A program made the position numbers and the translations under genes. Source: Prosapia bicincta (Eukaryota > Arthropoda > Insecta > Hemiptera > Cercopidae). Taken from it: a DNA stretch of 64,000 nucleotides. Under the pieces are notes generated by a model. That model was not told the DNA's origin. It made no database searches and worked only from the letters and a program-made list of their open reading frames with translations. Location of the stretch: positions 97,639,850-97,703,849 of the forward strand of contig JBAIZL010000001.1 of the NCBI GenBank assembly GCA_036971475.1. Direction: 5' to 3'. Shown here piece by piece: positions 23,855 to 60,768 of the stretch (positions are counted from its first letter, which is position 1; each line of letters opens with the position of its first letter).

Positions 23855-23899
23855 ATTCCTGAGGATGTTGGTAATGTTAACCAACGAAAAGCTTTGAAT
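23855..23899 (+). ncRNA. Hammerhead ribozyme, AAGCUU family
   Basis: Helix I 3' strand is AUUC (23855-23858). The core CUGAGGA (23859-23865, N7 = G) is followed by one extra U. Helix II is GUUGG (23867-23871) with CCAAC (23881-23885). GAAA is at 23886-23889, and helix III is the palindrome AAGCUU (23889-23894). H17 is U at 23895, and helix I 5' strand GAAU (23896-23899) is fully complementary to AUUC. All conserved core positions are present; cleavage is predicted after 23895. Such type I hammerheads with minimal helix III are known from Penelope-like elements. The minus-strand twin in the left arm has lost three bases of its core. Confidence 0.72.
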
Positions 23900-24323
23900 G
23901 TATTATTTCAATAAATTATTCCTGTAATTAGTGTATATTATTTAATCTTAAATATATATATATATATATATATATATATATATATAACAAAATATATATT
24001 CTTGTAAAATATTCAAAAAAACAAGAGAAATATAAATACAAGAATAATTTATTGAATTACACAACTCAAAGCTTTTCGTTGGCAAAAACAAAGTGTTGGT
24101 TGTTAGATCTAGCTAACCCTTGTATGCTTGCTTTTCTTCATTATTTTCGAAGATGTTGGTATTATTTCCCAACAATCAGCTATGAATTCTATAATTCAAT
24201 AAGTTATTCTTGTATTTGTAATTCTCTTGTTTTTTCATATATGTATATAAAAATAAAATCCGTTTTCTTGTTTAATAATTTAAAACAACATAGGTTATTC
24301 AAATACAAGAATATTTATTTTAT

Positions 24324-24368
24324 ATCCAAAGCTTTTCGTTGGCAAACAGTACCAACATCATCAGGAAT
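24324..24368 (-). ncRNA. Hammerhead ribozyme, AAGCUU family
   Basis: On the minus strand the order is AUUC, CUGAUGA, an extra U, GUUGG, a 9-nt loop, CCAAC, GAAA, the palindrome AAGCUU, U (H17), then GGAU. Helix I is GGAU with AUUC, including one G-U wobble. It lies in the third fold-back unit of the 23.6-24.7 kb cluster. Confidence 0.72.
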
Positions 24369-24700
24369 GAAAATTACAATAATGTCAATAAATTACAACA
24401 ATAAATATTGTTGTATTTGAATAACCTATGTTGTTTTAATATATATATATATATATATATATATATATATATATATATATATATATATATATATAAATAT
24501 CGCAATATGTTTTCTTGTGTATTAATAAAGAACAAAAGTCAAAATACAAATACCAGAATTATATTTGAATTTACAATTCAATATAATTGTAAATTCAAAT
24601 ATAATTCTTGTATTTGTATTTTGACTTTTGTTCTTTATATATATATATATATATATATATATATATATATATATATATATATATATATATATATATAACA

Positions 24701-26030
24701 TTGTTAATTATAATTTGTTTAATTGAAAAGCAGTATTAAAAAATCATTCAGTATTAAAAAATGTGTAACTAGGTATGGATTTGTTAATTCATAAGTTCAC
24801 TATTCCATATATTAAAACTCGAAACCAATGACTTATGAAATTTCACACTATTTCTATGCTTATTTCAATGCTGACTAAACTAGTTGTCCTCGGGAGTTAA
24901 ACTGGGATGTTAAAGCAGAATAAGAATCTTTCTCTTTCCTTTTTAAGAAACGACTTTTTCGTGTCACGTCATCCTCATAGCATGACAAGCGAGTCTCATA
25001 TATTGATGTTATATTATTGAAATTACTTAAGCTACTCTCTATGTACTAGCTTGTATATTATAACCGATAACGTGCTCTATTTCGATAACTATAACAGCAT
25101 ATTGCATCACGAGGCAAAGCTTTATACAATTATCCTCCAGATATAAGATATCAGCTGGCCGTCACATAAATATCAGTAAGTAGTCTGAACTAACTAATAG
25201 CAAATTCACATGAGGTTTTACTGTACGTACTGAATGCACTATACATGTTATCTCTATTTAATTCATATTTACGTATCCATAAGCGGTTTTCTTCTGACGA
25301 AGATTACAATAAAAGGATTTAAGGCATTAGGATATAGACCTACGACTAGAATGTTCTAAAATATTTTTCACGGTTTTTAAATACTGCGTTAGCTTAAGAA
25401 GATGAAAGAATTAAATGTTTTTCTGTCGTAGTCTTAACGTGATCGACCTGTAAGACTAACATCCCCTACAAAGGTTCGAAAAGGATCGTTAATCTATTTA
25501 GGATAGAGATGTTGCTACAGCTATCTAGCAGTTGATATAAGGGGAATATTTACACCAAGTAGAGCTAGTTTCTATCAAGATCATAAAAAGGTTTTTACTC
25601 TTATAGCTACTAGGGGGTATCAAGAAATGTAGGTAGAATACTATGGAAAAACAATGATCTCCTGGTACTGTTGCTGGCATAAACTTATGGCTTTACGTGA
25701 GCAGGATCGCATACTTTAGGTAATCCTTCTTACTTGGAACAGTTAAAACGAAATACTGAATAGTTTCGTAAACATTGGTATTAGTGAGGAAATAATTTAG
25801 TAGAATCGATTTGATAAAGAGGTAAGATTCTTCTTAAATATAAGCCTACATTTATTATTTGAAAAAATCTCAAAACGTTTTAGAATCAGCATACGGATGT
25901 GCTTTATTATTAGAAATGTATTTAATTGAAAACTAAGTAGCACCTCAATGATCATATACACACACACACACACAAACCAAATGTATTGTAGTACAAGTAA
26001 TAATACCAGTACAAAGTACTAGAATATATT
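24701..26030. other. No gene recognised
   Basis: AT-rich, without credible frames. A (CA)n stretch lies near 25957-25975. Sequence around 25640-25740 has faint similarity to 49070-49170 and 55190-55260 (CTGGTA ... GAGCAGG-TCGC), possibly an old dispersed repeat. Confidence 0.35.
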
Positions 26031-57748: not shown

Positions 57749-57793
57749 ATCAAAAGCTTTTCGTTGGCAAACATTACCAACATCATCAGGAAT
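57749..57793 (-). ncRNA. Hammerhead ribozyme, 3' copy, weakened
   Basis: Minus strand: AUUC, CUGAUGA, extra U, GUUGG, loop, CCAAC, GAAA, palindrome AAGCUU, U, then UGAU. The base after the predicted cleavage site is U instead of G, so the first helix I pair is a U-C mismatch and helix I is poor. The core itself is canonical. It lies about 88 nt after the ORF stop. Confidence 0.6.
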
Positions 57794-57880
57794 GAAAATT
57801 ACAATAATGTAAGCTATAGGCCTAAAACATATGTTTAATTAGAAATAGAATTGTTGCTAAATTTATACAAATTGCCAAAT

Positions 57881-60288
57881 TTATTTTGTTGCTGTAACGT
57901 TATAGACATTGAATATAGTATCAAATTTAGAATGTATTTGTATTTGTTCTTTTATTAATTTGTTATTATTATTGTGTTTATATATTTCAAATGCTTCATA
58001 TATATTCATTCTTAATCCCTTATTAATTTCTTTTATAACTATCATATTTTCTATATTTGGAAATTGGTGCTTACTATTAATACAATGATTTGCGAAATTT
58101 GATTTATATATTTCTGGATTAATATAGGCATTTAAATGTTCTTTATATCTTTCTTTTAATTTTTTCTTGGTTTGACCTATATAAGCTTTATTACAATTTT
58201 CGCATTCTAATTTATAAACACCACCTTTATCATGCATATTAATTGTTTTATTATTGTTATTTATTATGTTTATTATTTTGTTATTAATTTTGTATGCAAT
58301 TTTGATATTTGTATTTTTAAATAATTTGGTGATATTTTTTTATTTCATGGCCTATAAATAAAAATGAAGTCCATATTGTATTATTATAATTATTGCAAAT
58401 TAAATTATTATTTTGTTTATTAAAATTATTATAATTAAGTTTGTCCACAGTTTTCTTTTTATAACTGTTTTCTAATGCAATTTGATAAATTATGTTTTTT
58501 CTCTTATTTTATTTTCTTCATTCATGGGTATTTTATGCATTCTATATAATAAGTTATATAAAGCAGCCATTTTTTTATTATATTGATGATTAGAATTATT
58601 TGGTATAATTTGGTTTGTCGAAGTTTGTTTACGGTATATCATATATTCAAAGTTTTCATTATTTCTTGTTATTGTTAAATCTAGAAAATTTATTTTGTTA
58701 TTTGTTTCAATTTCATAAGTAAATTTGATTTTATTATTAATTTTATTTATTTTATCCAAAATATTTGTTAAATTTATATTATTATTGTTTGATATATATA
58801 CATTCCATCATCTACATAGCGAACCTAATAACCATTTTTATCATATATTTTTATAATTTCATTTATGTCTAATTGTTGTAAAAATATTTCAGATAATATA
58901 TTTGATAATGGCGAGCCCATAGCAAGACCATCTTCTTGTTTATAAATTTTGTCATTGTATGAAAAATAATTTTGATTTAATATTATTTTGAGTGTATTTA
59001 AAATTTCTAATGTTAATTTTTTATCTTTCTCGTGTTCTAATTTAGATTTTATAATTTCAAGAGTTTTTTTTATAGGTATGTTTGTATACATATTTTTTAT
59101 ATCTAATGATATTAATTTTGTATTTTCATTAATTTTAATTGCATTTAGTATTTCAATAAGATTAATAGTATTTCTGATAGTATGATTATTATTTAGTTCT
59201 ATTTTATCTTTTAGAATATTTACCATAACCTTTGATATTTTATAAGACTGAGCATTTATAAAATTTATTAATGGTCTTATTGGTTTATCTATTTTATGTA
59301 ATTTAACAAGTCCATTTAATGTTGGAATTTTCGGATTATCATTTATATAGTTGCTAATTTTATTTTTATTGAATAATTTATATGAAGGTTTTACAGTATT
59401 TTTTATTTTATTTTGAAATTTATTCGTAGGATCTTTATATATTTGACAAGATTGTATTACATGTATGTATTTTTCTGTTTTTGTTATGTGCTCATTTTTA
59501 TCAATAATGACAATAGCATTACTTTTATCTGCCTTTACTGTAATAGGATTATTATTTTGTAATTTTTGTTTTAAATCTTTAATTTCTGAATATTGTTTCT
59601 TATGTGTTTTATTAACTGTATTTTTTTAATCAATTTTTTAATTTCATAAGCTGCTCCAATTCTGGTATTTCTTTGTAAGCTTGTATTTAGTTTACTAATA
59701 GCTAGTTCTGTATCTATTATAGTATTATTAATATTATTATTTATGTCTGTTTTTATATTGGTTTTATTGTTTTCAAGTAGTTTTATTTCATTATTATTAT
59801 ATCCAGTATTTGATAGATTAACTAAATTAGGGTGAAAATTATGATATTTAATTTCAGGTACATCTTTTATTTGTTTTTCTAACTTCAAATTTTTAAGTTT
59901 TTTGTTTATTCTATTTATTTTTATATTTCTAATTTTATTTGTAAATAAATTGATTTTATTATATTTTTCTTCCCATTTTATGTTATGCATAATAGAAGCT
60001 AATTTTATATGTAGCTTATATATTTCAATCGTTAAAGTATATTTCTTTTGATACAAGTTTTTAATTTCATTCTTAACCCATAATTTTTCAGCTTGTTTAC
60101 ATGTTTTTTGAGCTATATTATTTTTGTTTTTTATTGTAATTTTTTGCGTATTTTTTAATTATATTATTTATAATACATTGTTTATTAAAGTATATATTAC
60201 AGATGGTATTCATTAGTTGAATTTTACGTTTTTCAAATAAATTAATGTCTTTTGTTAAGGCAACATTACAATTATTAATAGAAATCAT
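57881..60288 (-). pseudogene. Penelope-like RT/GIY-YIG polyprotein, frameshifted
   Basis: About 800 codons, from ATG at 60288 (MISINNCNVALTKDIN) to a stop at 57881. The Lys/Asn-rich N-terminal part reads to ~59571. The RT core follows: ADKSNAIVIIDK, PTLNGLVKLHK, SLDIKNMYTNIP, EDGLAMGSPLSN and catalytic YVDD at 58807-58818. The C-terminal GIY-YIG domain reads GGVYKLECENCNKAYIGQT with a downstream FANHC and LRMNIYEAFEIYKHN. Breaks: a frameshift near 60120 in an A-rich run, another near 59626 in an A-run, a TAG at 58825-58827 just before YVDD, and a frameshift near 58335. All motifs are otherwise intact, so inactivation is recent. RT and endonuclease would together carry out target-primed reverse transcription. 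Confidence 0.88.
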
Positions 60289-60723
60289 TTTAAAATATAT
60301 TAGTATAAAGTAGGCTGTATTATATTGTAAATATTTGCTTCAAGTTGTATATTATAAAATATTTGTTCGATCCAGTATCAACTTGTAAAAATGAAAATCT
60401 TCAATATAATTACTTTAGAAATGATAAAAATTATATATCTTGAGTTGTTTAAAATATCTTATCAAATATATGTAATAATACACACAATTCTAGATATTTG
60501 ATCGATTAATCAATATGTTAAATATTAAATATGTTATCAAAATGTTTTTGAATTAATAATCAAGTCTCAAATCTAACCTACAATTATAACACTTACATTG
60601 ATTGCACAACACTTTTTATATAACCCTATAAGGTTAATTTTATATAAATATAAAATACGTTTTCTTCTTTAATAATTTAAAACAGCATAGGTTATTCAAA
60701 TACAAGAATATTTATTAATTTAT

Positions 60724-60768
60724 ATCCAAAGCTTTTCGTTGGCAAACAGTACCAACATCATCAGGAAC
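60724..60768 (-). ncRNA. Hammerhead ribozyme, 5' copy
   Basis: Minus strand: GUUC, CUGAUGA, extra U, GUUGG, loop, CCAAC, GAAA, palindrome AAGCUU, U, GGAU. Helix I (GGAU with GUUC) pairs throughout with two wobbles. It lies upstream of the complete ORF, exactly 2975 bp from the equivalent point of the 3' copy. Confidence 0.7.

Follow-up and report, generated by a model that had tools for sequence, protein, structure and literature searches.

What kind of ribozyme is crowded into a single 64,000-nucleotide stretch of the genome of Prosapia bicincta (assembly GCA_036971475.1, contig JBAIZL010000001.1, positions 97,639,850 to 97,703,849; hereafter the window), and how could hammerheads whose helix III is only a short palindrome with no loop be cut at all? 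An earlier note on this DNA had described three unrelated families of hammerhead cores that shared one design and had proposed that they cleave as dimers. We find that the hammerhead motifs of the window are convincing and above chance, and that one of the families belongs to a Penelope-like element (PLE). Very probably, the cores are small type I hammerhead ribozymes of PLEs that would cleave in pairs, the mirror-image copies among them having arisen as two-strand insertions.

Ten hammerhead cores in three sequence families

A graded structural scan of the whole window returned ten hammerhead cores at a score of at least 33 (Table 1). Eight of these scored at least 36, while no match at 34 or above appeared when the sequence was dinucleotide-shuffled 5,082 times in blocks of 2 kb; the top shuffle score, 33, equals that of the two weakest cores (57789- and 27196-). 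A strict descriptor, which called for CTGANGA, zero or one extra base, a helix II of at least four pairs, GAA, a perfect palindrome and a helix I of at least four, found six matches, all among the ten cores, compared with two in 6,191 shuffles; the six Markov sequences that served as a first, small control gave none. Both descriptors were devised once the motifs were known, and copies of the same family are not independent, the independent units being families 1, 2 and 3. These data confirm that the window holds at least eight near-canonical cores of three families, as the earlier note had stated.

The cores have the make-up of type I hammerheads: CUGANGA and GAA, an A15.1-U16.1 pair, H17 and three helices. 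CUGANGA is kept in all ten and GAA in nine, with GCA in its place in 27196-. One extra base sits between A9 and helix II in every core (T in eight, A in two), and helix III is loopless and exactly palindromic in nine, both as previously described; the palindrome exception is 27196-, whose helix III reads ATGTATAT. Pairs 1-4 of helix I are intact in eight cores (57789- lacks pair 1 and 46247- pair 3), as are pairs 1-5 of helix II in eight (40761- lacks pair 5 and 46395+ pair 1). By helix III the cores fall into family 1 (AAGCUU; 23859+, 24364-, 40761-, 41324+, 57789- and 60764-), family 2 (AACGUU; 46395+ and 46247-) and family 3 (AUGUACAU; 27236+ and the damaged copy 27196-). The cores thus have the mark of small PLE hammerheads, a self-complementary helix III that is too short to form within one molecule.

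The shared extra base is not without precedent. De la Pena and Flores reportedly described in 2001 a hammerhead with one additional core nucleotide, following A9, in chrysanthemum chlorotic mottle viroid. That hammerhead shares one extra core base with ours and differs in belonging to a viroid and not to a genomic element.

Decayed relatives had also been suggested at 29.1, 34.8 and 37.1 kb, and the first and last of these were retained. Assignment of the 37.1-kb sequence to family 3 is supported by both arms of an older palindrome, the left arm alone scoring 25, with about 0.1-0.4 such matches expected by chance. The 29.1-kb sequence (CTGAGGA-A-GACGAC..GAA-ACTAGT) scores 18, which is not significant alone; we read it as a decayed fourth family because it occupies the same place within a palindrome. 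We dropped the 34.8-kb candidate, which has no listed palindrome, aligns poorly between arms and is absent from the 22 best matches of the scan. Separately, a weak hammerhead-like match lies at 18060-18108 on the minus strand (CAGAGGA, an extra T, helix III AGTTAGCT; score 29). Scores of at least 28 turn up about 0.03 times per shuffle, and no palindrome is listed at that position.

A Penelope-like element and its inverted ends

Family 1 belongs to a PLE. A broken element near the right end of the window is a partial tandem, made up of a longer copy and an upstream copy that is truncated at its 5' end (from about 61.2 kb), and the two share the end repeats 57700-58238 and 60675-61207. The direct repeats (D18 and D20) are 96% and 98% identical, with spacings of 2969 and 2975 nt, and each PLE repeat holds one family 1 core (60764- and 57789-). 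Between the repeats lies a reverse transcriptase (RT) fragment (RVT_1, E=9.1e-8; 32.5 bits, above the Pfam cut-off of 29.6). GIY-YIG fragments lie there too (E=1.4e-4 and 6.6e-4; 22.5 and 20.4 bits, both below the Pfam cut-off of 22.6), and the GIY-YIG motif GGVYKL..YIGQT was recognised by eye in the PLE frame. The two enzymes that define a PLE, a reverse transcriptase and a GIY-YIG endonuclease, therefore both accompany family 1, and its cores also have the location typical of small PLE hammerheads, in tandem in the end repeats (pLTRs), 2975 nt apart.

Relatives of the RT piece number 84 at E<=1e-3. An organism is named for nine of them, of which eight are insects (hoverfly, damselfly, termite, ants) and one is a rotifer; among the four pattern stretches found in viral contigs there was no relative of the piece. 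This copy of the element looks dead, because its reading frame is broken into several separate frames.

Four of the six family 1 cores sit in inverted copies of PLE ends. In tblastn, the endonuclease piece of the PLE itself matches both arms of the palindrome at 40670..41415, at 66% and 68% identity (E ~1e-22), and the family 1 inverted pairs match PLE ends in blastn. The description of three unrelated families is right for sequence, but six of the ten cores are one PLE lineage. The density of cores in the window is partly explained by the inverted copies, because one palindrome can bring two cores.

The geometry of these palindromes is directly observed. Wherever cores are kept they point outward, lying on the minus strand in the left arm and on the plus strand in the right. 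Four of the five family 1 pairs have a right arm that ends at AT repeats and a left arm that continues into a short extension (judged by eye; 24010-24240 is unclear). In the six palindromes measured, whose ends were bounded by judgement, the distance from the predicted cut to the outer end is 52-85 nt: 55 and 61 nt in family 1, 75 nt in family 2, 52 nt in family 3 and 82-85 nt in the two old palindromes, that at 29.1 kb being measured in one arm only. Families 2 and 3 and the decayed relatives thus share outward cores and a similar cut-to-end distance. From this we infer, and only infer because no PLE coding was found there, that families 2-4 are the ends of other PLE families. That ribozymes should lie inside non-coding palindromes is suggestive.

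A similar architecture has been reported for PLEs of Adineta vaga. PLEs are known to carry head-to-head inverted repeats, and the Adineta elements (PMC3846280) resemble ours in forming partial tandems of a full and a 5'-truncated copy with inverted ends, as well as in their head-to-head inverted pLTRs, palindromic junctions, one-sided tail and AT-rich targets. We liken the left-arm extension to the "tail" on one inverted pLTR described in the same paper. Hammerheads are mentioned nowhere in the main text of the paper (0 occurrences), and the window differs in that some of its palindromes consist of just two short ends.

Table 1. Hammerhead cores, palindromes and the Penelope-like element of the window (cuts are predicted)
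Feature	Position	Strand	Score	Remarks
Family 1 core 23859+	23855..23899	+	39	strict and graded scans; cut 3' of 23895
Family 1 core 24364-	24324..24368	-	38	strict and graded scans; cut 3' of 24328
Family 1 core 40761-, left arm of 40670..41415	40721..40765	-	36	strict and graded scans; cut 3' of 40725; helix II pair 5 mismatched
Family 1 core 41324+, right arm of 40670..41415	41320..41364	+	39	strict and graded scans; cut 3' of 41360
Family 1 core 57789-, downstream PLE repeat	57749..57793	-	33	helix I pair 1 lost
Family 1 core 60764-, upstream PLE repeat	60724..60768	-	37	strict and graded scans; cut 3' of 60728
Family 2 core 46247-	46208..46251	-	38	cut 3' of 46212; single helix I mismatch
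Family 2 core 46395+ (AACGUU)	46391..46434	+	37	cut 3' of 46430; helix II pair 1 is A-C
Family 3 core 27196-, left arm	27158..27200	-	33	GAA to GCA; palindrome damaged
Family 3 core 27236+ (AUGUACAU)	27232..27274	+	39	strict and graded scans; cut 3' of 27270
Broken PLE, partial tandem	57700..61221	-		direct repeats; RT and GIY-YIG fragments
Palindrome of two head-to-head truncated PLE ends	40670..41415			outward family 1 cores; PLE frame end in both arms
Palindrome of two family 1 ends	23676..23999			arms best matched at 23744-23956; right core intact, left damaged
Inverted pair of decayed family 1 ends	24010..24240			cores damaged in both arms
Inverted pair	24280..24439			left arm with intact family 1 core; right arm tail only
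Palindrome of sequence 3' of the ribozyme only	24466..24697			arms start close to the predicted cut (see text)
Family 2 palindrome, 369 bp	46137..46505			outward family 2 cores; no PLE coding
Family 3 palindrome, near-perfect, 225 bp	27104..27328			outward family 3 cores; no PLE coding
Older palindrome	36967..37269			decayed family 3 relatives in both arms
Older palindrome	28970..29238			putative fourth family, decayed, in both arms, with ACUAGU as helix III and A as the extra base

Other repeats of the window were noted in passing. An older palindrome at 33061-33273, with arms about 68% alike, has no hammerhead by eye. The same is true of an inverted-repeat element present in two copies of opposite orientation (2546-2711 and 15841-16006), which is probably a miniature inverted-repeat transposable element (MITE). 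A DDE_Tnp_4 transposase fragment, which we take to be Harbinger-type, lies at 14817-15275 (+), and a fragment of a hAT dimerisation region, just below the Pfam cut-off, at 47760-48179 (-). The stretch at 4782-12954 is very long and repetitive, with long open frames on both strands and repeats such as YSLPGIS; arrays occupy 52294-54600 (a satellite, 68-bp spacing, 32 registers) and 38998-40000 (21-bp spacing, 39 registers).

Predicted pairing between two cores

In an energy model, the best monomer hammerhead formed no helix III pairs in any of the ten copies, whereas two strands gained 6-8 of them. When helices I and III were formed between the two strands, the double hammerhead was more stable than a pair of monomer hammerheads in every one of the ten, the gain being 2.9 to 12.0 kcal/mol. 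The modelled energies make dimer formation plausible, and the best reading of the loopless palindromic helix III is that it would form between two copies. On these grounds we keep the dimeric cleavage proposed in the earlier note as the best reading, with the limit, given below, that the double hammerhead is seldom the most stable dimer.

The closest system is that of the small PLE hammerheads, which reportedly cleave as dimers according to work by Lunse, Weinberg and Breaker from 2017; work by Cervera and de la Pena from 2014 reportedly concerns the same kind of hammerhead. As described in reviews, those small dimeric hammerheads and the window cores are alike in their type I core, diminished palindromic helix III, location in PLE pLTRs, tandem copies and dispersed non-coding copies. 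One such review reports that minimal type I hammerheads occur as tandem copies within PLEs and also scattered through non-coding DNA, states that they may cleave as dimers, and describes PLE hammerheads as being without loop I-loop II tertiary contacts (PMC7761336). Another review adds that bonded hammerhead dimers require a palindrome in the stem III loop (PMC6466107). The window differs in that three to four families lie close together, and it may also differ in the additional base that every family carries after A9.

Satellite hammerheads of newt and axolotl are also alike in having a very short helix III with a palindromic loop (axolotl), and they are weak as monomers and active as dimers, as the window cores are predicted to be; they differ in their tandem satellite and retrozyme context and in their loop I-loop II contacts (PMC7229834, PMC6155905). 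Taken together, these comparisons identify the window set as further members of an already published kind, PLE hammerheads working as pairs. The earlier note, which is partly supported overall, had missed the PLE with its paired direct repeats, the head-to-head palindromes and the prior publication of dimeric cleavage. In the available parts of the literature, from which two key PLE papers are absent, we found nothing plainly the same for hammerheads in palindromic or inverted-repeat elements, or for PLE insertions that end at a hammerhead cut.

Possible insertion route and competing origins

How might outward-facing ribozymes in mirror-image copies arise? With family 1 in the pLTRs of a PLE, a transcript would carry two or more cores. 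The palindromic helix III would pair two cores, on the same RNA or on two RNAs, into a double hammerhead, which would cut after base H17. The PLE enzyme would nick both strands of the target and copy an RNA tail into each, and such two-strand copying would leave a head-to-head pair of cDNAs whose tails and ribozymes point outward, matching the observed geometry. For the Anolis PLE, the purified protein was shown to cut the target on each strand, to extend both, and to begin reverse transcription at an internal site of the RNA (PMC11167929). The authors of the Adineta study favour self-priming on an antisense template (PMC3846280). Both routes to a palindrome, two-strand copying and self-priming, fit the window data.

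One palindrome may bear on the use of cut RNA. The arms of 24466-24697 start at -2 (left) and +1 (right) from the predicted cut, as copying of cut RNA would leave. By a rough estimate of our own, the chance of a junction that near is about 1-2%, and this is a single case among five family 1 palindromes, weak alone. We therefore hold only tentatively, and think it rather doubtful, that the palindrome records insertion from hammerhead-cut RNA. The right arm of 24280..24439 (24386+) was considered as a second such junction and rejected, as its homology begins 8-11 nt 3' of the cut. According to a review, the role of the ribozyme in PLE insertion is a mystery (PMC7761336).

Several results weigh against the explanation preferred here. 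The lowest-energy dimer was the double hammerhead in one copy of ten (27236+), the other nine favouring another pairing. In vitro, ribozyme mutants insert equally well, so that hammerhead cleavage is not needed, and the Anolis study saw no reads ending at the cut (PMC11167929). For families 2-4 there was no linked PLE coding in the window: tblastn at E<=1e-3, run with five pieces of the window's PLE and with the 84 relatives, gave matches confined to 40.8-41.2 and 57.8-61.2 kb; nor was there any match between these families and the PLE in blastn at 1e-5, any clear target duplication by eye, or any match to the three DNA patterns searched in viral contigs outside the window.

To these must be added the Rfam covariance search that had been proposed as a check. 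No Rfam hammerhead model matched at E<=1 anywhere in the window, nor did any at E<=10 when one short stretch from each of the three families was searched, and by the letter of the proposed test this is a miss. For the 41.3-kb stretch, E<=10 yielded no match to a model of any kind. Matches in the 27- and 46-kb palindromes were mainly to microRNA models and all fell under their cut-offs, because long hairpins draw such matches; the 84 weak matches at 27 kb included the Hatchet ribozyme, at 14.2 bits against a cut-off of 51. In our reading, the Rfam miss reflects the models, which are built around a more complete helix III.

The absence of PLE coding near families 2-4 also suits a different origin for them, as fold-back DNA transposons (MITEs) with a hammerhead in each terminal inverted repeat, family 1 alone being PLE. 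This alternative covers families 2-4 only and is compatible with the rest of the explanation preferred here. Their arms end at the same point on both sides, with TA at the ends of family 2, and the window does hold a two-copy MITE-like family (2546 and 15841), a Harbinger-type transposase fragment and the sub-cut-off hAT fragment. However, families 2-4 share the ribozyme design of the PLE copies, including the extra base, together with the outward orientation and a similar cut-to-end distance, whereas the window's own MITE family shows no hammerhead by eye. We consider a MITE origin unlikely.

Less probable still, and in our view very improbable, is a metazoan retrozyme origin, in which the motifs would be part of non-autonomous elements that are arranged in tandem, carry type I hammerheads and spread through circular RNA. 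Animal retrozymes do have type I hammerheads, and amphibian ones work best as dimers, but retrozymes repeat head to tail in units of about 150-450 bp, and in most invertebrate ones the monomer already cuts well (PMC7229834). In the window, copies occur inverted or dispersed, and PLE coding accompanies family 1; among 20 of the 24 direct-repeat families, covering 23-64 kb, cores were found only in the PLE repeats and otherwise in scattered copies, with no head-to-tail array of that length. Fortuitous matches in AT-rich sequence, multiplied by its repeats, would account for the Rfam result and for descriptors fitted afterwards, but are scarcely credible against eight cores at 36 or more, no shuffle at 34 or more, and three families in which differing helices surround the same core.

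We thus return to small PLE hammerheads as by far the likeliest identity of the cores. If insertion from cut RNA did take place, the hammerhead would gain a role in PLE insertion; and if PLE palindromes genome-wide were often to join at the cut, this would mean that the ribozyme had cut the RNA before insertion. The finding itself ties a striking set of motifs to known biology, that of PLE hammerheads working as dimers.

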